45,918 nt of DNA from contig JAURHS010000011.1 in NCBI GenBank assembly GCA_030833205.1, forward strand, positions 1-45,918, written 5' to 3'. The position numbers and the translations under genes were made by a program. The stretch is from Prosthecobacter sp. (GTDB taxonomy: Bacteria; Verrucomicrobiota; Verrucomicrobiia; Verrucomicrobiales; Verrucomicrobiaceae). Every line of letters begins with the position of its first letter. Position 1 is the stretch's first letter. This document shows positions 32,290-45,918 of the stretch, piece after piece. The notes under the pieces were generated by a model. That model worked only from the letters and a program-made list of their open reading frames with translations, had not been told where the DNA came from and did not search any database.

Positions 32290-33015
32290 TTATTTGATGG
32301 CGGCTTTTTGAGCCTCGGCAGGGGACTGCGTCTGCTCTTTGGAGTTGGGGGCTGCGGCAGCCGAAACGGGTGGATTTACCCTCGCCTCCTTGAGCCTGTT
32401 GCCGTAGTCATTGATGTAGTTCTGGAACTTCACCCGCATGGATCCGACAAAGGGTTCGCGGGCCATGAGGGCAGTGCCCAGCCCAAACTTGCTGTAGCGT
32501 TCAAGAATCTCCTGGCCGAGGGCCAGCAATTCGCGGTTCTTGCGCTCGTGCTGCTGGCTGAGGCGCTCGCACTGCAGGGCCTTCTCCATGGCCTCGACTC
32601 GTTCGGTCTCCTTGGTTTGGGCGATGGACTTTGCCTGCTCAAAGCCCTGCTTCCACTTTTCAAGCGCCTCGGCGTATTGTTGGAGTGACTTCTCCTTTTG
32701 CGCGAGTTTTGTCTCCAGATCGTTCAGGCGCTTCTGGGTTTGGTCGCGGTAATCCTTGGACTGGGCAAGCTGCGCCTTGAGCTCCTTGGCCGTTGCTTCC
32801 TGGCGATTGGTCATTTCCTTGAGGGCAGCCTCGGCCTGCAACTGCGCGGCCTGGGCGTTGACCATTTGGGTCTCAGCATCGGTGATGCGCTGGGCGAGCT
32901 TCTTCATCGCATCGCGCATGCGCTGCAGCATGGGGTCCTGGGCTTGTTGGGCATGCAGGGTGGGGCTGGCCAGAATGGCGATCAACAACAGGGCAGGGGA
33001 AATGAAGCGTGACAT
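32290..33015 (-). CDS. Exported coiled-coil protein, function unknown
   Basis: This 241-residue protein is not assigned to any named family by me. Residues 1-22 form a signal peptide (LLLIAILASPTLHA). Residues ~30-185 are almost entirely heptad-like, rich in Gln, Lys, Glu and Ala (AQAAQLQAEAALKEMTNRQE, LNDLETKLAQKEKSLQQY), predicting a long alpha-helical coiled coil. The C-terminus contains a short folded segment (FVGSMRVKFQNYINDYGNRL) and a Pro/Ala/Gln tail. It lies 5 bp downstream of the porin and 5 bp upstream of the haemagglutinin-like gene. That position suggests a periplasmic chaperone, spacer or length-determining factor for the exoprotein, or a structural link to the porin. This role is inference from position only. 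Confidence 0.8.
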   Translation of the reverse strand: MSRFISPALLLIAILASPTLHAQQAQDPMLQRMRDAMKKLAQRITDAETQMVNAQAAQLQAEAALKEMTNRQEATAKELKAQLAQSKDYRDQTQKRLNDLETKLAQKEKSLQQYAEALEKWKQGFEQAKSIAQTKETERVEAMEKALQCERLSQQHERKNRELLALGQEILERYSKFGLGTALMAREPFVGSMRVKFQNYINDYGNRLKEARVNPPVSAAAAPNSKEQTQSPAEAQKAAIK

Positions 33016-33020
33016 GATGG

Positions 33021-34898
33021 TCAGAATTTTGCGGTGAGATCAAACAGCAGCAGATCCTGGCTTAGCGGTGGGCCGGACAGTTCGCTGATGCTGGCCCAAC
33101 GGGCGCCAAGCTTTACATGGGGCGAAAGACCGATGGCCCCGCCGATTGAAAACCCTGAGAAATTTGTGCCGCCACCAAAGACGCTGTCGGTAAAGGCATC
33201 GGGCATGGCATCGGACTGAACATGGCGGAAATCCAAAAAGACCTGCCAATCCCCGCGGCGCTCAAACTTTGGTTTGCCGAACTCGCTGCGCAGCATGAAG
33301 GCCTTGTTGCCGCCTTCGTAGTCGCCAAGAACCGCGTCACTTGGGGATGGGCCTCGATTGTTGATGGCCGTCGAGTTGATTTGGTCCTGATCCCAGGCGA
33401 GATTCTGCACATAGTTGGCGATGAAGCTCAGGCGGTAGGGTTCCCAGAGGTCAACATCCAGGCTGCCGTAAAGGTCGAGGTTGCGAAACGCCGAGGCCAG
33501 ACCGAAGTATTGAAACTGGTTCGTGGTGCCATTGCCATTGGCAGGGTCAGGCCGGATGTCGCGCAGGGCCCGATAAGTGTTGCCGCGTTGGGCAAAGGTG
33601 GGTCTGGTGTGGTCTGTGTCCCCGATGTCTTGATCGGAGAGTGGTACCATGGGTGAGGAGAGCAACCCTTCCATGTTGATGAACTCATGGTAGGCGGCGC
33701 TGAGCTTCGCGCTGACCTTGTCAGCGATGGGCAGTTGCATCCCAAGTTGCGCGCCCAGCAGGTAGCGGTCCCGACTCTCGAACTTGGCAGGTTGGTTGGT
33801 CCCGAAGTTGAGGTCAGTGTTGTAGATTGGGAAGGCTCCTGCGCTGCCAAAAACAACGGCATCGCCAACCCTGCGACGACCCTTGAGTGAGAGGCCATCG
33901 AAACCAAGGTCATTGTCCCACATCATCTCGGTGGACAGGAAGGGGTTGGCGTGACGACCGGCGAAGAGTTGGAATTGGTCCTCCAGGGCGTTGCCCACCT
34001 CGTAACGCATGTAGGCGCGGTCCAGCCAGATGCTGAATTTGCTGAAATTGCCACCCTGACCTGCCGCACCGCCCAGCGTTTGATTTTGGGTGACCGGAGA
34101 GCTGTTGTCACCGGTGGCGAGGCCCCCGCCCATGAACCAGCCTTCGCTCAGTGCCGCCTCAATGCCAACTCTCGCACGCAATTGAAAGCGGTAGCGATCC
34201 TGGTCCACATTCTGTTGCGGCGCGTAATTCAGTCCCCGCAGATCGTAGGGGTGGCCATTGTTGATCTGGTTGAAGTTGGGGAATGCACCCGTGTTGTCAT
34301 TGCCTTGGCCCGCGAGCAGATCGGCCCGCGCCCGCATCCGCACATCACCATAGACCTGATAACGCTCGCTCTCTTCCTCTGGAACCTTGAGCCATTGCTC
34401 GGCCTTCGCCTTGTCGAGAACCTCGTTGCGGATTTCCTCGCGCAGCTCCTGCTTCACATTTTCCGGCACATAGGCCACCCGCACCTCATCCTCGGCGGCC
34501 TGTCGTAGTTCGGCGTCTTCGAGCAGTTGCGTCTTGGCAAGCTCAGCCTCCGCCTCGGCCTGTGTGATCAGGGCCTGCGCCTCATCCGCACTGAGCAGGC
34601 CCTTGGCGACCATGAGCTTGAGTAGATTGAGAGTCACGCTCGTTGCCGGCGAGGGCATGGCTGCATTGGCTCTGCCTGCCAGAGGCTTGGGCAGTTGGTC
34701 CACGGGTGGCTCCCCGAGCAGTAGGTTGGTCTCGGGGCTGGATTGAGGTTGGCTGGAGGAGGGCTGTGGCAGGGTGGGCTCGCGCAGGGCTGGTGGCCTT
34801 GGCCCGGAAGCAGGTTGCTGCGCCATCAGGCTGTCGCAGTGACAAAGCGTGGGGCAGAGCACGCAGAACAGCGATTGGAGAAGGGAAGAAAACTTCAT
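33021..34898 (-). CDS. Putative outer-membrane porin with helical N-terminal region
   Basis: The ATG at 34898 (after a GTG at 34904) gives 625 residues with a signal peptide. Residues ~30-90 are Pro/Ser/Gln-rich. Residues ~95-165 form an acidic helix (LLSADEAQALITQAEAEAEL; VKQELREEIRNEVLDKAKAE), possibly a coiled-coil periplasmic module. The remainder alternates aromatic and polar residues as in a 'putative porin' beta-barrel: YQVYGDVRMRARADLLAG, YRFQLRARVGIEAALSEGWF, FSIWLDRAYMRYEVG, FAGRHANPFLSTEMMWDNDL, LSFIANYVQNLAWDQDQ. It ends in DLLLFDLTAKF, with the terminal Phe recognised by the BAM machinery. It lies directly downstream of tonB (20-bp gap). It may be a solute channel or a partner of the TonB module; selectivity cannot be read from the sequence. 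Confidence 0.88.
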   Translation of the reverse strand: MKFSSLLQSLFCVLCPTLCHCDSLMAQQPASGPRPPALREPTLPQPSSSQPQSSPETNLLLGEPPVDQLPKPLAGRANAAMPSPATSVTLNLLKLMVAKGLLSADEAQALITQAEAEAELAKTQLLEDAELRQAAEDEVRVAYVPENVKQELREEIRNEVLDKAKAEQWLKVPEEESERYQVYGDVRMRARADLLAGQGNDNTGAFPNFNQINNGHPYDLRGLNYAPQQNVDQDRYRFQLRARVGIEAALSEGWFMGGGLATGDNSSPVTQNQTLGGAAGQGGNFSKFSIWLDRAYMRYEVGNALEDQFQLFAGRHANPFLSTEMMWDNDLGFDGLSLKGRRRVGDAVVFGSAGAFPIYNTDLNFGTNQPAKFESRDRYLLGAQLGMQLPIADKVSAKLSAAYHEFINMEGLLSSPMVPLSDQDIGDTDHTRPTFAQRGNTYRALRDIRPDPANGNGTTNQFQYFGLASAFRNLDLYGSLDVDLWEPYRLSFIANYVQNLAWDQDQINSTAINNRGPSPSDAVLGDYEGGNKAFMLRSEFGKPKFERRGDWQVFLDFRHVQSDAMPDAFTDSVFGGGTNFSGFSIGGAIGLSPHVKLGARWASISELSGPPLSQDLLLFDLTAKF

Positions 34899-34918
34899 GA
34901 ACACAACGATGATGATGC

Positions 34919-35653
34919 CTAGGGAGCAGAGGCGAGGCCGCCGGATTTGCGCGCGCCGAGGCGCATCACGATGGGCATGGGCATGTCCGGTGGTGGCGGG
35001 TTGTCGAGAATGAGTCCGGTGAGGACCTCGCTTTTCAGGGCGCTGTCCACCGCAGGGTCACCGCTGCTGCCACTGAGGCTTGCCCGCGTGATGCGGCCTG
35101 AGCTGTCAGCCCAGATTCGGGCGGTGAGATTGAAAGTGGCGCTTTTGGTTTTGGGATGGCTGCGCATCGCGGCGGCGATGGACTTTTGGATCTTGCTGGC
35201 GAACAAGCCGTACTTGCCACCGTTGCCGCGGCCCCCGACGCGGCCTGTTCCCGAGCCCTGACCTGGCTTGTAGGCCCCCAAACCAGCCATGCCTGGTCCG
35301 TTGCCTACCAAATTTGTTGAGATCGGCGGAGGTTCATCTGGCGGTGGTTCGTCAGGCTTTGGTTCCTCTTCCACCTTCTCCTGGGCAACCATCTCCTCTT
35401 CCTTGGGCGGCTCGGGCTCCTGAGTCTTTGGAGGCGGGGGAGGGGGCGGCGGTGGTGGTGGAGGCGGTGGTGGCGCGATGCTGACCATCATCATCGGCGG
35501 TGGACGATGGGAGGTCGTGGTCTTTTTGCCGGCGCCGAGGTTCATCAGTGCCACGGCCACAAGGGCGGCACTCAGCAGGATCAATTTGCCTCGGTGACGA
35601 CGCAGGAATCCATCCTCCTCTTCCTCATTCATGGGCTGTGTTTTCATCATCAT
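34919..35653 (-). CDS. TonB-like energy transducer with 15-proline run
   Basis: This 244-residue protein (three consecutive ATGs at 35653, 35650 and 35647) starts 7 bp after the exbD stop. It has a short acidic/basic cytosolic N-terminus (MNEEEEDGFLRRHRGK), then one transmembrane segment (LILLSAALVAVALMNLGAG). The periplasmic part contains 15 consecutive prolines, then Glu/Pro/Lys repeats, the classical rigid TonB/TolA spacer. After a Gly-rich stretch (GVGGRGNGGKYG-like) comes a C-terminal domain, FASKIQKSIAAAMRSHP ... FNLTARIWADSSGRITRASL ... ALKSEVLTGL, which fits the TonB/TolA C-terminal fold (strand with 'DSSGRI', helix, final strand PIVMRLG). It should connect ExbB/ExbD to an outer-membrane client. 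No canonical TonB-dependent receptor is in the window, so the porin or the TpsB transporter are the candidate clients. Confidence 0.9.
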   Translation of the reverse strand: MMMKTQPMNEEEEDGFLRRHRGKLILLSAALVAVALMNLGAGKKTTTSHRPPPMMMVSIAPPPPPPPPPPPPPPPKTQEPEPPKEEEMVAQEKVEEEPKPDEPPPDEPPPISTNLVGNGPGMAGLGAYKPGQGSGTGRVGGRGNGGKYGLFASKIQKSIAAAMRSHPKTKSATFNLTARIWADSSGRITRASLSGSSGDPAVDSALKSEVLTGLILDNPPPPDMPMPIVMRLGARKSGGLASAP

Positions 35654-35660
35654 GCTGGGG

Positions 35661-36065
35661 TTATTTGTTTGGCTTGGTGGCCAATCCGATTTGCTCAAAG
35701 CCGGTGCGTCCCAGGACATCGAGCACATCCATGATCAGTTGATACTGAGTGCCGCTGTCGCCGCGCACAACGACTGGCGCATCCGGCAACGAGGACTTCA
35801 CCGCAGTCAGCTTGGACTCCAAATCCGCGATTGAGGCGACCGGGCTGGCATTGAGCTTGAGGTTGCCGGCACTGTCCACGGTGATGGCCTGAATCTTGGG
35901 TGCGTCCATCTTTTTGGCGGCCGCATTGCTGGCCTTGGGTAGGTTGACCTTGACCCCCTGAACGCCTGCCGTGGTCATGATGATGAAGATCAGCAGCAGC
36001 ACCAGGTAGAGGTCCACCATGGGCGTGACATTGATGTCGTCGTAACTCTTGTTGTCGGCCTGCAT
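35661..36065 (-). CDS. exbD: ExbD/TolR biopolymer transport protein
   Basis: This protein has 134 residues, standard for ExbD. The N-terminus is cytosolic (MQADNKSYDDIN) and the single transmembrane helix contains the essential proton-carrying Asp in VTPMVDLYLVLLLIFIIMTT (D18). The periplasmic domain contains VKVNLPKASNAAAK, then the two characteristic beta-alpha units AITVDSAGNLKLNASPV and PVVVRGDSGTQYQLIMDVLD, and ends TGFEQIGLATKP. It sits 3 bp after the exbB-like gene and 7 bp before the TonB-like gene, so the three are almost certainly translated from one RNA and form the inner-membrane proton-driven motor. Confidence 0.96.
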   Translation of the reverse strand: MQADNKSYDDINVTPMVDLYLVLLLIFIIMTTAGVQGVKVNLPKASNAAAKKMDAPKIQAITVDSAGNLKLNASPVASIADLESKLTAVKSSLPDAPVVVRGDSGTQYQLIMDVLDVLGRTGFEQIGLATKPNK

Positions 36066-36068
36066 GGT

Positions 36069-37922
36069 TTAGGACTCCTTGTGATGTTCAGCCATCTTGG
36101 CGATGAACTCGTCGATGAAGGTCTCCATGCTGGAGACTGCCGTTTTGATGCGGGTACTCAGGTAGCTGTAGACAAAGAGGCATGGGATGGCGACGGCGAG
36201 CCCAGCCACTGTGGCCAACAGCGCACCAGCGATGCCCGGGGCAATGCTGTTGACCTCAACCTGACCGGATTTGGCGATCACGGCGAAGGTGATCATCACC
36301 CCAATCACTGTTCCGAGCAGGCCAAGGTAAGGGCCGCCTGCGATGCCGATGGTCAGAAACACAAGATTGCTGTTGAGGCGCTCCACCTCGCGCATCAGGC
36401 CCCCATGCATGGTGGCCTTGATGGCCTGAATGGAACGGCCCGAAAGGCCGCGCTTGGTTGTGGCGATCTCCGCTCCCTTCTCAGCGGTGCTGGCCTGCAC
36501 TCGTTTGGCAATCTCCGAGCTGCCGAGGTGGTAGATGCGGTAAAGCGGGGATTGTTTCATCAGGCGTAGGGATTTGCCCGTGAGAGTTCCCCCCATGCTC
36601 TGAATGCTCGCGTCGCTGTCCGAATCCAGCGCGGTGAGGTCTGAGGAAATGCTCTCCCAACGCCGCAGGAATTCCTTCGAGGACTTGTCCATGGCATTGA
36701 GGTACAAAAACTTGCCGACCGCAATCACCATGCCAACGACAGCCAGCAGGGCGCAGAGCACAATGACGACCCAGCCGTCAAAGGTCAGGTCCTTGGAGAT
36801 GTCCACAAGCAGGGTCAGGTGCTTGGCCAACTCGCTTTCCTCAGCATGGTCTGAAAGTTCCTCGGCGCCCAGAGTGATCAATTTTCCTGCTTCGGCTGAG
36901 CTGCCGTGGGCGATGGCTTCGAAGGCCACCCAAGACTCACCACGGGCCACCGTGGCAATTTTGAGTTCGTCGAATTCACCCAGCACCCCTGGTCTTCCCG
37001 CGACGGCGGATCCCAGAGTCAGCGGGGCCTGCACTTCACCCATGGTGGCATTGATGGCTCCGGCGGATTTTCCATCCACAAAGAGCTGGACCTTGCCCTC
37101 GGCAATCACCGTGGCGAAGTGGTGCCAGACCGCTGGCGTCAGCGGGGCGGTTGGGCTTGAGCGACTACCATTGGCCTCCACCCAGGGACCAGAGGAACTC
37201 AGGCCAACTGCCAATCCCTGATTGCCGCTCTTGCGCTCAAGGATGCTGCCCTCAGAGCCTGCGGTTGGTTTGAACCAAAAGCTAAGGGTCAACGCACCAT
37301 TCCAAGGGCCGCCCTGCGTCGCTGGCAGAGTCAGTGCTGCGCTGCCGGTGAGGCGAAGCCCAGAGCCCACGATCCCGGGGCCGCTGCTCGCTGTCCCTTC
37401 AAGATTGGCGCCGTCATTGATGCTGTTCCTGCTGAGCTTGGCGGCGTCGGCGAAATGAAACAGCGCAGTCGTTGCCGAGTCCACGCTGGCCTCGGCATCG
37501 GCGGCATCGGCGGCGTCAGTCACATTGCCGCTGTACATCCACAGGGTGACCTTGGCTCCTGGCTTGAGATCCGGTGCCTTGACCCAGACAAAGGCCTCAT
37601 TGAGCAGACCGTCCCACTTTTCGATGTGGTGGGGCAACAGCGTCTTTCCATCCTCCCCAAGAAAGCGCAGATCCGAGCCATCTTCCCGTGAGGCAAGAAA
37701 GTTGAAGTTGCCTTCGTGAAGCCGGATCAGCAGCAGCCCCGAGCGAACCTCTGCGCTGACGCTTTGGGAGACAGCGGCCGTGTCCACGACGATGGGTTTG
37801 CGGCTCGGCCACTTGGCATCCCACCATGGGGCCTTGGCCTCTTGGTCGTGTTCTGCAGCGTTCAGGTTGAGGCTGCCGAGCAGCAGACCGGAGAGCAATA
37901 AGGTTTGAAGGGTTCGGTTCAT
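36069..37922 (-). CDS. exbB: ExbB/TolQ proton channel fused to DUF2341 and LamG domains
   Basis: Starting at the ATG at 37922 gives 617 residues and a signal peptide (LQTLLLSGLLLGSLNLNAA). Residues ~30-125 resemble DUF2341 (WWDAKWPSRKPIVVDT; LLLIRLHEGNFNFLASREDG; VTLWMYSGN). Residues ~150-340 form a LamG/concanavalin-like jelly roll (ALTLSFWFKPTAGSEGSILE; WHHFATVIAEGKVQLFVDGK; LGEFDELKIATVARGESWV). A transmembrane helix (VVIVLCALLAVVGMVIAVG) follows, then the MotA/TolQ/ExbB channel with LVFLTIGIAGGPYLGLLGTV and GIAGALLATVAGLAVAIP. A normal ExbB is ~240 residues, so the ~380-residue N-terminal part is an extra periplasmic module on the motor, perhaps sensing or binding glycan. The gene starts 8 bp after the TpsB stop. 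No domain appears broken. Confidence 0.95.
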   Translation of the reverse strand: MNRTLQTLLLSGLLLGSLNLNAAEHDQEAKAPWWDAKWPSRKPIVVDTAAVSQSVSAEVRSGLLLIRLHEGNFNFLASREDGSDLRFLGEDGKTLLPHHIEKWDGLLNEAFVWVKAPDLKPGAKVTLWMYSGNVTDAADAADAEASVDSATTALFHFADAAKLSRNSINDGANLEGTASSGPGIVGSGLRLTGSAALTLPATQGGPWNGALTLSFWFKPTAGSEGSILERKSGNQGLAVGLSSSGPWVEANGSRSSPTAPLTPAVWHHFATVIAEGKVQLFVDGKSAGAINATMGEVQAPLTLGSAVAGRPGVLGEFDELKIATVARGESWVAFEAIAHGSSAEAGKLITLGAEELSDHAEESELAKHLTLLVDISKDLTFDGWVVIVLCALLAVVGMVIAVGKFLYLNAMDKSSKEFLRRWESISSDLTALDSDSDASIQSMGGTLTGKSLRLMKQSPLYRIYHLGSSEIAKRVQASTAEKGAEIATTKRGLSGRSIQAIKATMHGGLMREVERLNSNLVFLTIGIAGGPYLGLLGTVIGVMITFAVIAKSGQVEVNSIAPGIAGALLATVAGLAVAIPCLFVYSYLSTRIKTAVSSMETFIDEFIAKMAEHHKES

Positions 37923-37930
37923 GATCGAAG

Positions 37931-39544
37931 TCAAAAGTCAGCCCAGAGGCGGAAGCTCAGAAGAAGGTCTCCGGCCTGGGTCTCGTTCAGGTCGAGAAGG
38001 GGAATGCCAAGGTCTGCAATCGCCTGCCAATGCGAGCCTAGGCGAAGGCTTGAGCCGATGCCGAGGCTGGCAAGGCTCCATTGCCGTTGCTGCTGGGGGA
38101 GTGCCTTGTGAATGCCCAAAAGCGCGCCGTCGGCAAAGACATGAAATCGCCACTCCCTTGGGCTGGGAGTCCCATCGTCTTGTCTGGCATTGCCTGGCCC
38201 CAATAGTGATGGCGTGCGCAGTTCCAGAGTTGAACTCAACCCGACATCCCCGAGGGCCGCAGAAACCAGATATCCGCGCACGCTGTCGAGACCACCTGCA
38301 GAGAACTGCTCGTTGTTGATCAGTGCGTCATGGCTTGCCTGTCCTGCAATGCGAACAAAGCCCTGCCAGGCTCCAGGCAGATCCTGCAGGTGGTTGGCGT
38401 CGGCCTTGAGCGCGAGATAGCCGCCAGATGAGGCATAGCGTCGCGCATTGAAGTCACTGCGGCTTGCCATGCCGCGAAAAGCCCAGTTCAGGGCGATGTT
38501 GGCCTGGGTGAAGGATGCCTTGCGCGTGGCGGCTAGGCTGTAAGCCACATGCAATGGCCAGTAGGAGACTGGTGCACTGAGACGGTTTCCTGTCTCGCCA
38601 AGATTGAGCACCTGGCTGAAGTTTTTGTAATCAATGCCTGCGGAGATGCTGTGCATGAGGCCTTCCGCAGCGGGGAGTTGGTGGCTCAGATTCAAACCAA
38701 CCACCTCTCCCTGGCCAACCACCGCAGATCCTCCCAGTGTGTTGATGTTGCTGCTCTGCTTCATGCCAGAGAAAGTGAGCTCGCTTTTTTCCGAAATGGG
38801 CAGGGAGTAAAACCCTGAGTACACCTCACCATCGTCGAGACGCTCGGGAGCCACCTGGAAGCTCGCCCCCATGCTGTGACCCATCTGCCAGAGGTTGCTG
38901 TAGGAAATGCCCCCATTGATTCGGAGTGGGACGGTGTTTGGACTGTACCGGTTGTTGATTTCGAAGTTGCCGTGAAGCGGTGCCCGGTCCTCGACCTCAA
39001 GCTCAATGTCGAGAACCCCAGGGTCATCGCCGGGGTTGAGTTTGGGGGTGACCTTCAGGTCACTGCCTTGATTCAGGGCCACGATGTCGCGCTCGATGTC
39101 CTTGAAGTGCGGAGCCTTGCCTGGTGCGAGCGATGGTGCCCTCTTTGCGATTTCGCTGGGCAGATTCCATTTCGCCCCCCTGACCGAGAGCTTGCCAATG
39201 CTTGCCTCAGTCACCTCAAGTTTGATGATGCCACGGCGGCCACTCTGCTGTGGAACCGTCACAGTGACGGCCTGCCAGCCTCGGTCGTGGTAGCATTTTT
39301 CAAGGGCGGCTCTCGCCTCTTCGATGTCTTGGGCCCGGCGACCGGGTCCGAGGTGCGGATACACGGCCTTGGAGATTTCCAGCGAGCTGAGCAGGCGGTT
39401 GCCGCTGACCCGGTACTCCCTGATGAAGTAAAATGGCTCGGGGTTGTCTGGTGGTGTGGCCACTGGCACCGTCTGCCCCAGGGCCAGGCTGTGCAGAAGC
39501 AGGCCAATCACCAGGAGCGAAAGTTGTGGCGAGAGTCTCGACAT
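37931..39544 (-). CDS. TpsB/FhaC/ShlB-type outer-membrane transporter of two-partner secretion
   Basis: The ATG at 39544 gives 537 residues with signal peptide LSLLVIGLLLHSLALGQ. An ATG at 39565 and a TTG at 39589 are longer alternatives. Two POTRA domains follow: FIREYRVSGNRLLSSLEISK with ARAALEKCYHDRGWQAVTVT (~35-110), and IIKLEVTEASIGKLSVRGAK onward (~110-185). The ShlB-type 16-strand barrel includes HGNFEINNRYSPNTVPLRIN, SAGGLDSVRGYLVSA with the conserved VRGY lid-lock motif, WRFHVFADGALLG, and a terminal Phe (LLSFRLWADF). It is the first gene of the seven-gene operon whose last gene is the TpsA-like exoprotein. Two TonB-related differences stand out: the operon supplies its own Exb/TonB motor, whereas classical TpsB proteins are thought to need no energy input. 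Confidence 0.93.
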   Translation of the reverse strand: MSRLSPQLSLLVIGLLLHSLALGQTVPVATPPDNPEPFYFIREYRVSGNRLLSSLEISKAVYPHLGPGRRAQDIEEARAALEKCYHDRGWQAVTVTVPQQSGRRGIIKLEVTEASIGKLSVRGAKWNLPSEIAKRAPSLAPGKAPHFKDIERDIVALNQGSDLKVTPKLNPGDDPGVLDIELEVEDRAPLHGNFEINNRYSPNTVPLRINGGISYSNLWQMGHSMGASFQVAPERLDDGEVYSGFYSLPISEKSELTFSGMKQSSNINTLGGSAVVGQGEVVGLNLSHQLPAAEGLMHSISAGIDYKNFSQVLNLGETGNRLSAPVSYWPLHVAYSLAATRKASFTQANIALNWAFRGMASRSDFNARRYASSGGYLALKADANHLQDLPGAWQGFVRIAGQASHDALINNEQFSAGGLDSVRGYLVSAALGDVGLSSTLELRTPSLLGPGNARQDDGTPSPREWRFHVFADGALLGIHKALPQQQRQWSLASLGIGSSLRLGSHWQAIADLGIPLLDLNETQAGDLLLSFRLWADF

Positions 39545-39597: not shown

Positions 39598-39615
39598 AGG
39601 TGACGAATCTGTCGC
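39598..39615. promoter_or_regulatory. Second Pho-box-like 7-4-7 element before the TpsB operon
   Basis: AGGTGAC-GAAT-CTGTCGC reads as two 7-bp units with a 4-bp spacer, the geometry of the enterobacterial Pho box (CTGTCAT-AAAT-CTGTCAC). It matches that consensus at 12 of 18 positions but in the orientation opposite to the genes. It lies 54-71 bp before the TpsB ATG and 22 bp from the stronger shared dyad. I count it as supportive only. Confidence 0.35.
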
Positions 39616-39637
39616 ATGGTTCTTGGGTCTCCGTTTT

Positions 39638-39655
39638 GGTGAATTTTTCGTCACA
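39638..39655. promoter_or_regulatory. Shared 18-bp dyad upstream of the TpsB operon
   Basis: GGTGAATTTTTCGTCACA matches 15 of 18 positions of the element GGTGACTTTTTGGTCACC found before the PstS-like gene. Its near edge is 94 bp upstream of the TpsB ATG (39544), against 99 bp for the other copy. It sits between the terminator of the Calx-beta gene and the operon start, where a promoter must be. It can be read as a GGTGA/TCAC dyad or as a 7-4-7 Pho-box-like repeat (TGGTGAA-TTTT-TCGTCAC). Confidence 0.55.
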
Positions 39656-39674
39656 AAGCCAGGCTCCGACTCCC

Positions 39675-39712
39675 AAAAAAAAAGCCCCATGATCCCGGGG
39701 GATCATGGGGCT
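39675..39712 (-). terminator. Strong intrinsic terminator after the Calx-beta gene
   Basis: AGCCCCATGATCC (39683-39695) pairs perfectly with GGATCATGGGGCT (39700-39712) around a 4-base loop. On the minus strand the stem is followed by a run of nine T (the nine A at 39675-39683 on the plus strand). It lies 23 bp after the stop of the Calx-beta gene and ends the PstS-like/Calx-beta transcript, so the TpsB operon downstream needs its own promoter. Confidence 0.95.
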
Positions 39713-39735
39713 CGTGGGAGGGCCTCAATTTTCTT

Positions 39736-42700
39736 TTAGAGTCGGGTCGGCAGAATTTCCACCGAACCTGCCTCACCCAAGCCGTCCACCTTGACGGGTC
39801 TTGGAGAGAGGAAGTAGCCATAGACTCCAGCCAGTGGTCCCTTTTGGTAGATGCGGGCCACATAATTCAGCCTTGCGCCATTGCTGTGGGTAAAGAACCC
39901 GGCCACCGATCCCGCGGGCGCGGTGATGACAACGCTATAGCTGGCGGGCGCCAAGATGCCTGCTCCAGCGACTGCGGTCACCACATTGGCGCTGCTGATG
40001 GAGAGTCTGCCAAGGGCGGCATCTTCCAACAGGCCGCCCGCGAAGGTGAGGTCGGCATTGCCAGAGGGGTTGGCCGCCGAGAGCCCTGGCAGGACACCCC
40101 CGGACAGGGCGGGGTTGTAGCTGGCTGCATACAACTCCACGCTCAAGCCCTCATCCCATCCCCAAGGATACCACTGCGTGGCGTTTTGCCACGGGCGATA
40201 CCATTGGCACTGGGCGGCCTTCATGTCGCTGTCGGCTCTGCTGCTGTCGAGTTGGAGTTGAGCACCAAAACTTCCCCGGTTGGCATAGAGTTGGGCAAAC
40301 AGAGAAGATTCAAGGCTGCCAGGGCTGCCGCCGTTGACGATGGGACTGCTGAGGGTCAGGGCCGTATCGTCGGCAAGCCTGACGGACAGGCTGATGATGC
40401 CCAGATTGCTGACCTTCAGGCTGCCTTGACCGTGACCCTGTGGGTAGTCCTGTGGCTCAAGGCCATTGGCCTGCGTCGCCGCAGGGATAACCACGGTGTG
40501 GTAGCCGCCGCTGCGCAGGTACGGCGAGTTTGCCGGCAGCGGGCTTTTGCTGTTGAAGGCGGCTCGTTTGAGGCTGAAGACGCTGCGCGAGACCAGGTTG
40601 CGGCGTTGATAAAGACTGATGCTGCCGGTGATGCGGTCATTGGCTTCATCCCAGTTGAGACTGCTCAACTCAATCGCCGGTTTACCCAGCCTCTCGACGC
40701 GCACACTCCTGCTGGTGTCGGCACCAAAAAAGGCGAGCCCAGAAGCACTGAAACTGCCCGCGGGCAGGGTGAGCTTGAAGCCGTCAATCATCAGGCTGCC
40801 CGTAAAGCTGCCCTTGTTGGTCAACATGACTTTGGCGTATCCGAACGAGGCATTGCTTTTGGCAAAACCCGAATCGGCGCTGACCAATCCACTAAACTCT
40901 CCCACCTTGCTGTCTGCAAAGGGCGAGCCCGCGAAGTTGGCCGTGATGCTTGGCGCCAGTCGAATCGCCTCCGAGTAGGTGAAGATGAGGCTGGGAACCC
41001 GAGTGCTGGGGTCGCTTCCCAAACCGGGGACCGTCCAACTGGAGAAGGCAAATCCGCTTTTCGGCGTGGCACGCACCACATAGGTGGCGCCCGTTTCGAA
41101 GTTGTTGCCAGTGACCGCCACTGTGCTGCCCAGGCGGGTGATCACGCCAACCGTGCCACGGCTCCCGTCGGCGGGGTTGGTGACCACGCTGAGGCTGCCC
41201 TTGCGGACATAGGTGACAAGCCGGGTGATCGTGGTGACATTGCCACGACTGTCCGTGGCGCGGGCGACGATGGTGTTGACTCCAGGAGTGACCGACACGG
41301 TGCGGAGGTAAGTTCCAGCGGAGAGCGCGGCCAGTGCAAAGTTGCCGCCATTGAGTGAAACCTCCACCCGCTCCAGATTCACATTGTCTGAGGCGGTGAG
41401 ACGCACGGGCACGCTGTTGCTTTGAGGGTCTTCAATTCTCAGGTTCGCGGCAGGGGAGTTGAAGGACAGGGAGGGTGCCGTGCCGTCTTGGGCCAGCAGG
41501 GTCACTGCCATACTGGTCACCGTTCCCAAGGCAAGGTAGGTCGGGGCGTCCACAGGCCTGCTGATGTTGACGGTGAAGCCTCGATTGTTGGCAATTGCAG
41601 CGCTGGTCAGGGAGATCGGAAAGCTGACGCTGTTGACATCCTGACCAAAGCTCACCCTCGTGTTGAGCGCCGGTGCCGTGAAGTCCGTGCCTGCACTTGC
41701 GCTTCCATTGCTGGTGCTGATGATGACTTCAACAGGCTCAGTGCCGCCCGAGCGAACCAGACTCAGGCTGGCGCTGCCGCTCTCTGCGTTGACGCGCAGC
41801 GTGGAGGCTGCGAAATCCACAGTGCTGGTGATGAAGGTGTCGCTGACGGTGAGGGTGAAGCTGCTGTTGGCTCCGAGTTGGGCTGAGGTCGGATTGGAGA
41901 GAGAAAGGACAAGGTTGCGATCTCCCTGCACGCCGGGGCGGTTGACCAGGGACAAGCTGACTGTTTTGCTGGTCTCACCAACGCCGAAGCTCACGCTGCC
42001 GCTGGCCAGCGGGCTGAAGTCTGCCGCAGAGCCCGAGGTGACCGCAACTGAAGCCTCGCAGCTTGTGGTCAGGTCCCCATCCCGATGGACGGTTACACTC
42101 AGGCTGCCGTCAGCCTCAGCCGCAGTAGCCGAGGCGCTGGCAAACTGAATTGTGGCTGTGGTCACGCTTGCCGGTTGAAAGGTGAGCGCGCCGTTGCTGC
42201 CGAGATAGAGCAATCCAAGGTAGTCTCCCGGGGTGTCAATCTCGGCACCCGTGGTTGCTGGTTTGATGCGGTGAAGGCGCAGAATCGCCCCCGCAGATCC
42301 AGAGCCAAAATTGGCCTCGATGCTTGGGTTAAAAAAGGCGAAGCTGGTTCCCGGCGCCGGCCCGGAATTGGCAAGGGTGCCGCCTGGCTGATAGCTGCCC
42401 CAACTGTTGGCGTCAGAGAGCGTCTGCAACACGGCATTGCCAAGGGACAAGCCAGAGCTCGATGCGCCATTGAAGGCGGTCATTGCCGCCACCAGTTTGT
42501 TGGTGGCCGCAGCTTGAGTGCTGTCGTTTTTGCGAGTCCATGGAGTGAGCAAGGCGCTCGAGCCGTAGATGGTCTTGGCCGGAATCGCGCCGATAGCCTG
42601 AAAGGACCCCGTGGTTCCTGCAGCGCCCCAGAAGAGGTTGGCGCGGCTGTTCCAGGCTGCGCCGTAGGTGGCGACAAGATCAGGCCCGAGATTACCCAGG

Positions 42701-42906
42701 TTGAGATTGGAGTTGGCCGCCTCGATGGTGGCGGCCGAGCCAAGATTGACCACGAGGTTTTTCGTGGACCCAGTGCCATCCGTGGCCCTGAACCCAAGTA
42801 GGATATCGCCATCGGCGACTGTGGCGCCTCGTGCCAGGCCAGGTGACAGCACAAAAGCTGTCCCCAGCGCCAGCATGCAGGCCAGCCGTTGAGAGAGTGA
42901 TTTCAT
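39736..42906 (-). CDS. Large exported Calx-beta domain protein
   Basis: This 1,056-residue protein has a signal peptide ending near residue 28 (FVLSPGLARGA). Residues ~30-245 form an N-terminal domain with GDILLGFRATDGTGSTKNL and VVNLGSAATI, a pattern common in exported Verrucomicrobia proteins. Residues ~250-470 hold two Calx-beta-like modules (TIQFASASATAAEADGSLSV; VDFAASTLRVNAESGSASLS with a typical GTDFTAPA turn). An Ig-like stretch follows (PVRLTASDNVNLERVEVSLN), then a bacterial repeat-like segment (YVVRATPKSGFAFSSW). The C-terminal ~400 residues form beta-rich repeats with GYAKVMLTNKGSFTGSLMID. No PEP-CTERM tail is seen. The gene starts 47 bp after the PstS-like gene and is closed by the strong terminator. 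It is probably a surface or matrix protein that binds calcium, which I infer from the Calx-beta modules. Confidence 0.85.
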   Translation of the reverse strand: MKSLSQRLACMLALGTAFVLSPGLARGATVADGDILLGFRATDGTGSTKNLVVNLGSAATIEAANSNLNLGNLGPDLVATYGAAWNSRANLFWGAAGTTGSFQAIGAIPAKTIYGSSALLTPWTRKNDSTQAAATNKLVAAMTAFNGASSSGLSLGNAVLQTLSDANSWGSYQPGGTLANSGPAPGTSFAFFNPSIEANFGSGSAGAILRLHRIKPATTGAEIDTPGDYLGLLYLGSNGALTFQPASVTTATIQFASASATAAEADGSLSVTVHRDGDLTTSCEASVAVTSGSAADFSPLASGSVSFGVGETSKTVSLSLVNRPGVQGDRNLVLSLSNPTSAQLGANSSFTLTVSDTFITSTVDFAASTLRVNAESGSASLSLVRSGGTEPVEVIISTSNGSASAGTDFTAPALNTRVSFGQDVNSVSFPISLTSAAIANNRGFTVNISRPVDAPTYLALGTVTSMAVTLLAQDGTAPSLSFNSPAANLRIEDPQSNSVPVRLTASDNVNLERVEVSLNGGNFALAALSAGTYLRTVSVTPGVNTIVARATDSRGNVTTITRLVTYVRKGSLSVVTNPADGSRGTVGVITRLGSTVAVTGNNFETGATYVVRATPKSGFAFSSWTVPGLGSDPSTRVPSLIFTYSEAIRLAPSITANFAGSPFADSKVGEFSGLVSADSGFAKSNASFGYAKVMLTNKGSFTGSLMIDGFKLTLPAGSFSASGLAFFGADTSRSVRVERLGKPAIELSSLNWDEANDRITGSISLYQRRNLVSRSVFSLKRAAFNSKSPLPANSPYLRSGGYHTVVIPAATQANGLEPQDYPQGHGQGSLKVSNLGIISLSVRLADDTALTLSSPIVNGGSPGSLESSLFAQLYANRGSFGAQLQLDSSRADSDMKAAQCQWYRPWQNATQWYPWGWDEGLSVELYAASYNPALSGGVLPGLSAANPSGNADLTFAGGLLEDAALGRLSISSANVVTAVAGAGILAPASYSVVITAPAGSVAGFFTHSNGARLNYVARIYQKGPLAGVYGYFLSPRPVKVDGLGEAGSVEILPTRL

Positions 42907-42953
42907 GAATGGTGAAGGGATGAGAGTTCTCGCGTTTGGAGGCAGAGAGGGGC

Positions 42954-44369
42954 TTAGTTGTGAAACACCACGCCGCCGTCTGCAGTGCGTGAGCAGTTCA
43001 TTTCGGAGAGCTTGATGGGGGAGTAGGTTGTCTTGATCTTGTCGGCCATGTTGTCAGCGATGGCCTTCTTGGCCGCGCTGATGGTCTGTTGATAAAGCAC
43101 ATGCTGATAGCACCAGAAGGTGTACTGGCCCTCCTTGACGGCCTCGAGGCTGTAGGGCACGCCGTTGTAGGTCAGCTCCTTTGCGCCTGCGTTGATGCCC
43201 GTCGGAGCGTCACCTGTGCTGACATAGCTGATCAGATAGCCGACATCACTGACATTGCCAAAGTAGCCCACCAGGGTGCCACCGCTGGATTCCCCTCCAT
43301 TGCCAACCGTGAAGGTGATGCCATTGACCACCTGCTGGGGGTAGGGCGTCAGTGCCGTAATCACACCGTTCACCACGGTGGGCCTGTACTGAGTCACCGT
43401 GCTGTCCACACCGATGCCGGTTTCGGCAAAGGTGGTGAGGCGCGTTCCAGAATCGGGATCGCGGCCGGTGGCGTAAACACGAGTCGCTGCATCAGCGGCG
43501 CTCCCTGTGAACTGGGAGAGACTGAGGCTGCCACTGCTCCAGAGTGCCTGTGCCTGCTGGGCGTTGATGTTGGTGATGGGCGCCGGAGTGGCAAAGGTAA
43601 GGGTCACCGGCGCGGGGCTGGTGGCCGTGGCTTGGGAGCTGAGGGTCACCTGCGTGGCGGAGTCCACCGACAGCACTCGGACATGAGCGCTTGTCGGAAT
43701 GCCGGTGCCCTTGACATTCATGCCAACGAGGATGCCGGTGGTGTCCGCCATCGTGACGGCGGCGTTTCCGCTGACCGTCGAGACATCAGCCTTGGTGACC
43801 ATGCCCGTGGTCAATCCCCGATTGATCAACCATTTGAATCCGATGACTCCAACCTTTTGGCTGGCGAGCACGGGCGTCTTGAATGGAGTGGCGGCCTGAA
43901 AGCTGTCGCCCATGGCCACATCAGCCACCTGCAGGTTGGGCCCAAAGGAACTCGAGGAGCTGATTTGCGTGCCGCCCGTGGCATTGGCGCCAGCGACCTG
44001 CAGTGTTGGAGTTGCTCCGGCGTCGGCAAGGGTGTCGGGTAGGAAGCCCACGGGAATGGAACCGGCCACCACCTGAATGCCTCCGGTTGAGCCAGACCAT
44101 GAGGTGCTGACAATCACCTTCTGTCCGCCAACCAGCCCGTAGAAGAAACTTCTGCCCGAGCCACTGAGGCTGGAGCCGGCATAACCTGCCAGCGGGGGGG
44201 CGTCGAAGAGAGCGACGATGGCGTTGTGAGTGGCGGAACGAAAAGCCGTTGACCCCGTGATTCGAAGAATCGTGGATTCATTGGAGGGCTCGGCGTGAGC
44301 AAGCATGGCCGACCCAAACAGGGCAAGGCCTGCGGCGTAGTGTTTCAAGGCAGTCAGGGTTGTCTTCAT
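42954..44369 (-). CDS. PstS-like periplasmic/extracellular binding protein with inserted beta-module
   Basis: The ATG at 44369 gives 471 residues with signal peptide ALKHYAAGLALFGSAMLAHA. ILRITGSTAFRSATHNAI (35-52) resembles the first ligand loop of phosphate-binding proteins. VIGFKWLINRG (~174-184) and ITNINAQQAQALWSSGSLSL (265-284) match the hinge and 'NLT..Q...I..G' region. GRDPDSGTR (302-310) matches the R-x-x-S-G-T ligand loop, and VGYLISYVSTGD the closing 'IGY' strand. Between the lobes (~188-262) lies an extra beta-module (LVGMNVKGTGIPTSAHVRVL ... ATQVTLSSQA) of a kind usually found in adhesins and phage fibres. No PstABC permease genes adjoin it, so a surface-bound or secreted phosphate-binding (DING-like) role is possible. 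The promoter region has a dyad shared with the TpsB operon. Confidence 0.8.
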   Translation of the reverse strand: MKTTLTALKHYAAGLALFGSAMLAHAEPSNESTILRITGSTAFRSATHNAIVALFDAPPLAGYAGSSLSGSGRSFFYGLVGGQKVIVSTSWSGSTGGIQVVAGSIPVGFLPDTLADAGATPTLQVAGANATGGTQISSSSSFGPNLQVADVAMGDSFQAATPFKTPVLASQKVGVIGFKWLINRGLTTGMVTKADVSTVSGNAAVTMADTTGILVGMNVKGTGIPTSAHVRVLSVDSATQVTLSSQATATSPAPVTLTFATPAPITNINAQQAQALWSSGSLSLSQFTGSAADAATRVYATGRDPDSGTRLTTFAETGIGVDSTVTQYRPTVVNGVITALTPYPQQVVNGITFTVGNGGESSGGTLVGYFGNVSDVGYLISYVSTGDAPTGINAGAKELTYNGVPYSLEAVKEGQYTFWCYQHVLYQQTISAAKKAIADNMADKIKTTYSPIKLSEMNCSRTADGGVVFHN

Positions 44370-44399
44370 GGCAGTAGGCAATGGTTTGTTTGTGGGTGT

Positions 44400-44459
44400 G
44401 GTCTCACTTGTTGGGATGAGACCTACCCATCCAAGCCTCATGTGGCGATGTGCCGCCAC
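44400..44459. repeat. Two inverted repeats in the leader of the PstS-like gene
   Basis: GGTCTCA (44400-44406) and TGAGACC (44417-44423) form a perfect 7-bp stem around 10 bases, 31-54 bp before the ATG. GTGGCG (44442-44447) and CGCCAC (44454-44459) form a second, 6-bp stem around 6 bases. Both lie between the shared dyad and the start codon. They may fold in the 5' untranslated RNA or be protein-binding sites, and neither has a T-run. Confidence 0.5.
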
Positions 44460-44467
44460 GGCTTGCG

Positions 44468-44485
44468 GGTGACTTTTTGGTCACC
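44468..44485. promoter_or_regulatory. 18-bp dyad / Pho-box-like element upstream of the PstS-like gene
   Basis: GGTGACTTTTTGGTCACC is a perfect 6-bp inverted repeat around 6 bases, 99 bp before the ATG of the PstS-like gene. It can also be read as two 7-bp units separated by four T (GGGTGAC-TTTT-TGGTCAC), the spacing of a Pho box. Fifteen of 18 positions recur before the TpsB operon at nearly the same distance from the start codon, which argues for a common regulator. The identity of that regulator (PhoB-like or other) is inference. Confidence 0.6.
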
Positions 44486-44620: not shown

Positions 44621-45466
44621 TCAGGAGACAAGCACGGCCTCAGCTTCGCCCTGAGTTGAAGTCATGGAGTTCAAGGCTGCTTGTTGGTGCACCGTGCCCT
44701 TGGGGAGACGATGGGTGCGACGACAGAATTCAGGGTAGTCAATGACCTCGAAGCTGCCGTCGTGGTGCTCAATCACTGCCGTGCAACTCTCCACCCAATC
44801 CCCGCTGTTGAGGTAGTGAACGCCGCCGATGACGCGGTCTGCTGCGGTGTGAATGTGGCCGCAGATGATGCCGTTGCAGCCGTGGCCGCGGGCCAGGCCC
44901 TGCAGTTGTTGCTCGTAGGCTCCCACAAACTTCATCGCCTGCTTGACCCGGGATTTCACCCATTGGCTGAGTGAAAAGGCCTCTGCCCGGCGAAGTCTGC
45001 GCCATGCATTGAAAAGGCGGTTGAAGCGAAGCAGCAGGTCGTAGCCAATGGCGCCGACTTTGGCCAACCAGAGATAATGGGTGCAGACATGGTCGAATCC
45101 ATCACCGTGAACCACCAGATAGCGCTGCTCTCCGCGTTCGAGAATGTGTTGACGGCCAAAGCGGATGCCGGGCAGCGTAAAATGGCCGAAGTTCTCCAAA
45201 ACCTCGTCGTGATTGCCGCGCAGATAAATGACCTCCACGCGTTCCTTTTCCATTTTTTTCAGCAGGCTGCGCAGGAAGTGCGTGTGCTTGGGCAACCACT
45301 TGCCCGAGCTTTTCAGGGCCCACCAATCAATGATGTCGCCGTTGAGGATGAGTTGGTCGCAGCAGGTGTGACGCAGCAAATGGGCGGCCTCGAGGCTACG
45401 GCTATCCTTCATGCCCAGATGGAGATCGGAGAGAATCAGCGTGCGGACGCGAAGCTTGGATTTCAT
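44621..45466 (-). CDS. PlcP-type metallophosphoesterase (phospholipase C-like / LpxH family)
   Basis: From the ATG at 45466 the protein has 281 residues with all calcineurin-like metal motifs: SDLHLG, GDIIDWW, GNHDE, HGDGFD and GHIHTA. Its overall pattern and the segment LNSGDWVESCTAVIEHHDG match the Pho-regulated PlcP of alpha-proteobacteria. PlcP hydrolyses phosphatidylethanolamine and phosphatidylcholine to diacylglycerol so that phosphorus can be recycled. Databases commonly label such proteins UDP-2,3-diacylglucosamine diphosphatase (LpxH), which is the main alternative. No signal peptide is seen, so it probably acts at the inner face of the cytoplasmic membrane. Its ATG overlaps the stop of the upstream methyltransferase (ATGA), which strongly links the two; a BtaB-like partner favours the PlcP reading. 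Confidence 0.85.
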   Translation of the reverse strand: MKSKLRVRTLILSDLHLGMKDSRSLEAAHLLRHTCCDQLILNGDIIDWWALKSSGKWLPKHTHFLRSLLKKMEKERVEVIYLRGNHDEVLENFGHFTLPGIRFGRQHILERGEQRYLVVHGDGFDHVCTHYLWLAKVGAIGYDLLLRFNRLFNAWRRLRRAEAFSLSQWVKSRVKQAMKFVGAYEQQLQGLARGHGCNGIICGHIHTAADRVIGGVHYLNSGDWVESCTAVIEHHDGSFEVIDYPEFCRRTHRLPKGTVHQQAALNSMTSTQGEAEAVLVS

Positions 45467-45918
45467 GGTCTGGTGGTTGGGGTGGTGGCGCGCGTGCCAA
45501 CAAAGCTGAAGTACTGCCACAAGCCCCCATAGGCGCTGTGGCGGCTGGCATCCACTGGCAGGAACTGAGTGCACAATCCGGGCAGGATGCGACCATCCAT
45601 GCGCACATGGTTCAGAGCCATCCACCTGGCGAAACCAGTCCTGGGACTGGCGTCAAAATCAACGACGGCCAAGTAACCACCGGGTTGCAGGGCCTGCGCA
45701 ATGCGATGAAGATTATCGTTGATCGTGCCTGAGAACATGCTCAGCGAGTAGGAGCAGAGAATCAGATCGTGCTGCATGCCTGCAGGATCAAATGCCGCCT
45801 CGGTGAGTTTGGCGCGCGGGCAGTGGCGGCGCGCATGACGAAGCATGCTTGAGCAAAGATCAATGCCGTGAAGTTCTGCTCGGGGATAGAGTTGCTCGAG
45901 AACTTTCAGATTGCGGCC
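45463..45918 (-). CDS. BtaB-like SAM-dependent methyltransferase, N-terminus beyond window
   Basis: The frame is open to the right edge, giving the last 151 residues. GRNLKVLEQLYPRAELHGID followed by LCSSML is the end of SAM motif I with motif II ('TGRNL...GIDxSxxML'). LILCSYSLSMFSG and IAQALQPGGYLAVVDF correspond to motif III and beyond. This set resembles BtaB, the methyltransferase that turns diacylglycerylhomoserine into the betaine lipid DGTS under phosphate starvation. UbiE-type or phosphatidylethanolamine methyltransferases are the alternatives. The stop overlaps the PlcP-type start by ATGA, the arrangement expected if PlcP supplies diacylglycerol to betaine-lipid synthesis. The BtaA partner would have to lie to the right of this window. 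Confidence 0.75.
   Translation of the reverse strand, partial: GRNLKVLEQLYPRAELHGIDLCSSMLRHARRHCPRAKLTEAAFDPAGMQHDLILCSYSLSMFSGTINDNLHRIAQALQPGGYLAVVDFDASPRTGFARWMALNHVRMDGRILPGLCTQFLPVDASRHSAYGGLWQYFSFVGTRATTPTTRP

Follow-up and report, generated by a model that had tools for sequence, protein, structure and literature searches.

Candidate Pho-box elements ahead of a TpsB-ExbB-ExbD-TonB operon and a PstS-like gene in Prosthecobacter

Genes and elements of the locus

The window, by which we mean the whole stretch of 45,918 nucleotides of Prosthecobacter sp. contig JAURHS010000011.1 that was analysed, has its relatives in Prosthecobacter and other Verrucomicrobiota. An operon with the order TpsB, ExbB, ExbD, TonB, Porin_5, coiled-coil protein and TpsA follows a PstS-like gene and its Calx-beta/Big_7 partner, from which it is separated by a likely terminator (Table 1). 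ExbB carries DUF2341 and LamG-like lectin domains, which is unusual for a protein of proton channels. The coiled-coil protein is retained between porin and TpsA in most of the loci named across the phylum (see below). To the left of TpsA (263-21195) lie sulfatases, PSCyt/PSD1 proteins and a LysR regulator.

Table 1. Features of the window, from right to left. Scores of the elements are those of the pst-trained matrix described in the text.
Feature	Position	Strand	Basis or remark
Methyltransferase (BtaB-like from its context), truncated at the end of the contig	45463..45918	-	neighbour of DUF3419 in relatives
Metallophosphoesterase, PlcP-like by context	44621..45466	-	domain match and context
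Pho-box-like element before PstS-like gene	44468..44485	.	GGTGACTTTTTGGTCACC; score 11.2
PstS-like periplasmic binding protein, PstS fold with inserted domain	42954..44369	-	predicted model; no Pfam hit
Calx-beta/Big_7 protein, downstream partner of PstS-like gene	39736..42906	-	domain matches
Hairpin then T run, likely terminator, separating PstS-like/Calx unit from TpsB operon	39675..39712	-	read by eye from sequence
Distal Pho-box-like element before TpsB operon	39638..39655	.	GGTGAATTTTTCGTCACA; score 14.8
Proximal Pho-box-like element before TpsB operon	39599..39616	-	TGCGACAGATTCGTCACC; score 16.5, rank 1
TpsB (ShlB/FhaC type, POTRA_2)	37931..39544	-	domain matches
ExbB with N-terminal DUF2341 and LamG-like domains	36069..37934	-	domain matches
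ExbD	35661..36065	-	domain matches
TonB-like protein	34919..35728	-	weak matches, below cut-off
Porin_5 putative porin	33021..34904	-	560.8 bits
Coiled-coil protein without family	32290..33015	-	conserved between porin and TpsA
TpsA exoprotein, 3713 aa, TPS domain	21143..32284	-	domain match

The name PstS-like, which an earlier reading of the sequence alone had given to the binding protein, holds as far as the fold is concerned, because the predicted structure (mean pLDDT 84.1) found its best PDB matches among PstS proteins. The 14 PDB fold matches at E ≤ 0.001 were all phosphate-binding or phosphate-transport proteins. Only this fold comparison gave a match; sequence searches of Pfam, NCBIfam and the PDB returned nothing strong, with no Pfam hit and 13.1 bits for TIGR02136 against a cut-off of 206.6. 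A GRDxGSGTR stretch is widely conserved and may resemble the phosphate loop of PstS.

Three Pho-box-like elements were found in the short gaps that precede two minus-strand genes, the first gap lying before the PstS-like gene (ATG 44369) and the second between the likely terminator (hairpin and T run) and TpsB (ATG 39544). The 15 of 18 identical positions between the 44468 and 39638 elements, from which the sequence-only reading had started, were confirmed. Its statement that both stand at the same distance from the start codon rests on 99 and 94 bases from the near edge to the first base of the respective ATG. It hinges on the start chosen, because translation of the TpsB frame could also begin further upstream (TTG 39589, ATG 39565). 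Equal spacing is moreover no constraint, since the sites of relatives sit at varied upstream distances. The third element, which had been placed at 39598-39615 and described as weaker, is present, but its best placement is one base further on and it is the strongest of the window rather than a weaker one. The originally noted pattern also recurs at seemingly corresponding places in three related genomes (G015, G040, G041).

Shape and specificity of the element

Each site consists of two 7-bp half-sites on GTNAC, 11 bp apart, with the consensus TGTGAC[GA]NTTTCGTCACA. Among 151 distinct sites, which were selected by the matrix so that their letters are partly circular, GTNAC stood at offset 0 in 138 and at offset 11 in 113, and positions 8-10 were T-rich. 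The sites thus have two half-sites of ~7 bp, one helical turn apart, around an AT-rich spacer. They can be read as a dyad and equally as a direct repeat, because the GTNAC core is self-complementary. Flanking the 18-mer, the 151 sites showed a weak, symmetric pair of triplets, CAA at -12 and TTG at +27 to +29, perhaps because some of the sequences are related or because the contact extends further.

The Pho box of the E. coli type has the consensus CTGTCAT-N4-CTGTCAT. This strict consensus was rejected for the window sites, each of which mismatched it at 6-7 of 14 positions. The 7-4-7 arrangement, the 11-bp spacing, the AT-rich (here T-rich) spacer and the location upstream of pst are shared with the E. 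coli box; the letters are not shared, as the half-sites here read TGTGAC[GA] and CGTCACA, whereas both half-sites of the E. coli box read CTGTCAT. The element looks like a lineage-specific version of the Pho box.

The pattern shared by the first two elements occurred 3 times in the window at ≤3 mismatches against 0.37 expected, and none of 100 shuffles reached 3. At 0 or 1 mismatch it was found nowhere else in the whole genome, and at ≤3 mismatches it gave 100 matches genome-wide against 75 for the reversed pattern. The form TGTGAC-N6-GTCACA at ≤3 mismatches was no commoner genome-wide than its control (668 vs 1003 per strand). The pattern is accordingly over-represented in the window, but loose matches are common throughout the genome. 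The loose motif therefore proves nothing by itself, and it is position and conservation that carry the case. The exact pattern was dropped as a genome-wide marker of a regulon, its matches being too few or too loose.

We built a matrix from 40 sites (≤1 mismatch), with the window left out; the sites came from other members of the family, in which 25 of the 38 pst loci supplied them. Scanned over both strands, it gave no other position of the 45.9 kb as high a score as the three elements: they accounted for the five best combinations of position and orientation, with 44468 at rank 5 and the next position at 9.3, and exactly three positions scored ≥11, all inside the two relevant gaps (0.96% of the window). 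Dinucleotide shuffles of the window had on average 0.54 positions at ≥11 (maximum 3) against the 3 real ones. The best score of 16.5 is not extreme in itself, as 99% of the shuffles peaked at ≤17.0. The letters alone lift the motif only modestly above chance.

Across 68 genomes of the family, the exact consensus TGTGACRNNTTYGTCAC without mismatch had 81 matches, compared to 3 for the reversed control, and 35 of the 81 lay within 8 kb of a pstB. The proteins adjoining 10 of the remaining exact-match loci included a PhoB-like regulator and, divergent from it, a glycosyltransferase (L407), the glycosyltransferase (L415), PhoU_div (L411), Porin_O_P (L396, L413) and a PstS above its cut-off (L414). 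Genes without an evident phosphate role adjoined three further matches (aldo-keto reductase, L403; PSCyt protein, L406; DUF3450, L398), and a protein without family adjoined the last (L397).

Conservation at phosphate genes and TpsB operons

In the same genome, a pstS-pstC-pstA-pstB-pstB operon with a divergent Porin_O_P (OprP/OprO-type porin) gene lies on contig C12. The intergenic region common to the two contains three copies of the element, two of which are perfect TGTGAC-N6-GTCACA and are the only perfect matches to this form in the genome. The element thus precedes both pstS and a phosphate porin here, and among relatives a score of ≥13 was reached by 34 of the 38 pst loci. PhoU, above its cut-off, is encoded on C94, with a PhoB-like regulator and a PhoR-like kinase nearby. 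The promoter of a second PhoB-like regulator, on C225, holds a copy scoring 19.8 that is common to a divergent DUF3419 gene. A PhoB, PhoR and PhoU set is therefore encoded, of which the PhoB- and PhoR-like members fall below cut-off: PhoB was the best family for both regulators, yet with 234.6 and 231.6 against the NCBIfam cut-off of 296.2, and PhoR was the best match of the kinase.

A near-perfect dyad is usual for other dimeric regulators, and one of these (CRP/FNR-, GntR- or Rex-like) could read the element and control the pst and TPS genes together for a reason other than phosphate. We regard this as improbable. With a self-complementary GTNAC, a direct repeat also mimics a dyad; the fixed 11-bp spacing and the T-rich, asymmetric spacer are as in PhoB sites; and the genes matched are phosphate genes, among them those for PhoB-like regulators.

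We examined 560 bp around the TpsB start at a threshold of ≥13. In the family, 22 of 27 TpsB loci reached it, as did 2/29 for ExbB, 0/27 for ExbD, 0/26 for TonB and 0/26 for the porin. Among 80 named loci across the phylum, 56 of which had a usable TpsB start, the element was present before TpsB in 36/56 and before ExbB, ExbD and TonB in 2/61, 0/67 and 0/68, respectively; the two sets are not independent, because their loci partly overlap (e.g. L273 = G029, L275 = G004, L277 = G003). Before the internal genes of the operon, both sets thus gave background rates only. When the 11 loci that belong to the family or are labelled Prosthecobacter were removed, a score of ≥13 was still found for 26 of 45 TpsB promoters. 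Unseeded expectation maximization from random starts on 45 TpsB promoters outside the family recovered NTGTGACNGNATCGTCAC, with a log-likelihood of 249 compared to 54 for the best shuffled run. The element therefore recurs before orthologous TpsB operons, although not universally.

These data bear on whether the two T-rich dyads first noted might resemble each other by chance and share no regulation at all. Loose matches are indeed common genome-wide and the scores alone are not strongly above those of shuffles, but the position of the elements, their conservation across genera and the unseeded recovery of the motif contradict such a coincidence, which we consider extremely improbable.

The compact Calx-PstS-TpsB clusters L238, L241, L242 and L244 of the family had no box before TpsB or in the flank examined, and most named loci of this layout were likewise boxless (also L281, L292, L310, L336). 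In both G029 and Haloferula BvORR071, one cluster with a box and another without occur in the same genome; the clusters thus seem to fall into two subtypes that are controlled differently. In seven loci (L284, L299, L319, L330, L338, L347, L350), an additional, separate box stood before TpsA, as reported for pdtA of P. aeruginosa.

At the PstS-like gene the picture is less uniform. Directly before it, only 3 of 24 loci scored ≥13. Where a PstS-like gene, or a Calx/PstS-like pair, is the first of its own unit, the head of the unit scored ≥13 in 12 of 24 loci, a total that includes one locus too near the contig edge to score. The window's own site, 44468-44485, ranked 13th among the 50 matches listed with ≤2 mismatches in the genome, a ranking among the matches listed up to contig C205. 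In G029, which has the closest PstS-like orthologue (79% identity), the aligned site scored 9.3 and stood beside a stronger one of 17.4. The promoter of the second-closest orthologue, in G016 (63% identity), was without the site. The TpsB sites might thus be real Pho boxes while 44468 is a chance dyad, as its score of only 11.2, its rank and its absence in G016 would allow. We think this unlikely, though well worth keeping in mind, given the stronger neighbouring site in G029 and the boxed heads in half of the loci. It is nevertheless the least secure of the three sites and the weaker half of the regulon claim.

Phosphate control and related systems

Taken as a whole, the elements are very probably sites of a verrucomicrobial PhoB-type regulator, which, on the sequence evidence above, would switch on the TpsB operon and, less surely, the PstS-like/Calx unit at low phosphate. 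Support for reading them as Pho boxes comes from the copies in the pst/porin promoter and in the PhoB-like promoter, from the pst loci and from the TpsB orthologues. The proposal of a regulon shared by the binding protein and the secretion/TonB operon is well supported on its TpsB side and less secure on its PstS-like side. Under phosphate shortage, a PhoB-like regulator would be activated by the PhoR-like kinase and would then bind the 39638 and 39599 sites and turn on TpsB, ExbB, ExbD, TonB, the porin, the coiled-coil protein and TpsA; binding at 44468 may, less certainly, activate the PstS-like/Calx pair. As its part in phosphorus scavenging, the module would export a surface protein of very large size and supply energy for traffic across the outer membrane.

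Phosphate control of the related pdtB operon of P. aeruginosa, via PhoB, is already known. Passages of PMC4971064 describe transcription of phdA, pdtB, exbB2D2, tonB4 and PA0696-PA0701 from PphdA, and pho boxes that bind PhoB in both PpdtA and PphdA. In part of PMC7035377, PA0696 is given as a putative outer membrane porin and exbB2-exbD2-tonB4 as a still uncharacterised putative TonB system; the cluster was, by a passage of PMC2729926, discovered as a target of VreI. Compared by gene order, not protein against protein, the window shares TpsB, ExbB, ExbD, TonB, porin, an extra protein and a TPS exoprotein with the PUMA3 regulon (phdA-pdtB-exbB2-exbD2-tonB4-PA0696-PA0697 and pdtA). Pho boxes precede the operon and pdtA in P. 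aeruginosa (parts of PMC4971064 and PMC7035377), and a Pho-type box precedes the operon here. The window thus combines the TpsB-ExbB-ExbD-TonB-porin order and TPS exoprotein of the pdt/PUMA3 type with a Pho-type box before the operon. Unlike in PUMA3, TpsA directly follows the operon and the letters of the box differ. The PUMA3 system, as far as the same sources describe it, also needs the VreI/VreR sigma factor system and is followed by PpiC, YbjN and LysR-type genes; no VreI/VreR, PpiC or YbjN genes were found among the window proteins scanned.

Plasmid clusters of Methylosinus C49, Klebsiella quasipneumoniae SB98 and Cupriavidus USMAA2-4 have the identical order ShlB-ExbB-ExbD-TonB-putative porin-hypothetical, and the porin of such proteobacterial pdt-like plasmid clusters is 35-40% identical over 86-89%. 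The stretches scanned of the Methylosinus, Klebsiella, Burkholderia and Reyranella loci had no box of the verrucomicrobial type. Because its gene order agrees with both P. aeruginosa and the plasmid clusters, the window operon is a far relative of the pdt kind. Very probably, TPS-ExbBD-TonB-porin operons are under phosphate control far beyond Pseudomonas. Such control, shared by different phyla, suggests that the operon serves to acquire phosphorus rather than virulence as such, and this role becomes testable in harmless aquatic and soil bacteria. The sites also provide a usable definition of the Pho box for Verrucomicrobiota, of which we found no description in the titles and abstracts of the literature searched. 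By analogy with HxuA in haem uptake, we tentatively raise the rather doubtful idea that the set is one phosphate-starvation import machine from Pseudomonas to Verrucomicrobiota, in which TpsA would capture a phosphorus-rich polymer at the surface, TonB-coupled outer-membrane proteins would import it and the PstS-like/Calx pair would bind the phosphate released.

The right end of the window holds genes of the lipid-remodelling type. The methyltransferase homologue adjoined a DUF3419 (BtaA-type) gene in 30 of 30 relatives examined, and in G003 and G004 the DUF3419, methyltransferase and phosphoesterase genes stand in this order beside the PstS-like cluster. We take DUF3419 to be BtaA. The btaB/plcP-like neighbours fit a phosphate-starvation island. 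Part of PMC4796936 describes plcP-btaA-btaB clusters with Pho boxes, which the present set resembles in having a metallophosphoesterase and a methyltransferase beside DUF3419 in relatives; unlike in those clusters, it adjoins the PstS-like/TPS cluster, and the DUF3419 gene of this genome lies on a different contig. A score of ≥13 ahead of DUF3419 was reached in only 6 of 31 loci, many others having weaker look-alikes, so that the box is no general feature of these genes. The genome's own DUF3419 gene runs off the right end of C225 (L257), which suggests that C225 and the right end of the window are perhaps adjacent.
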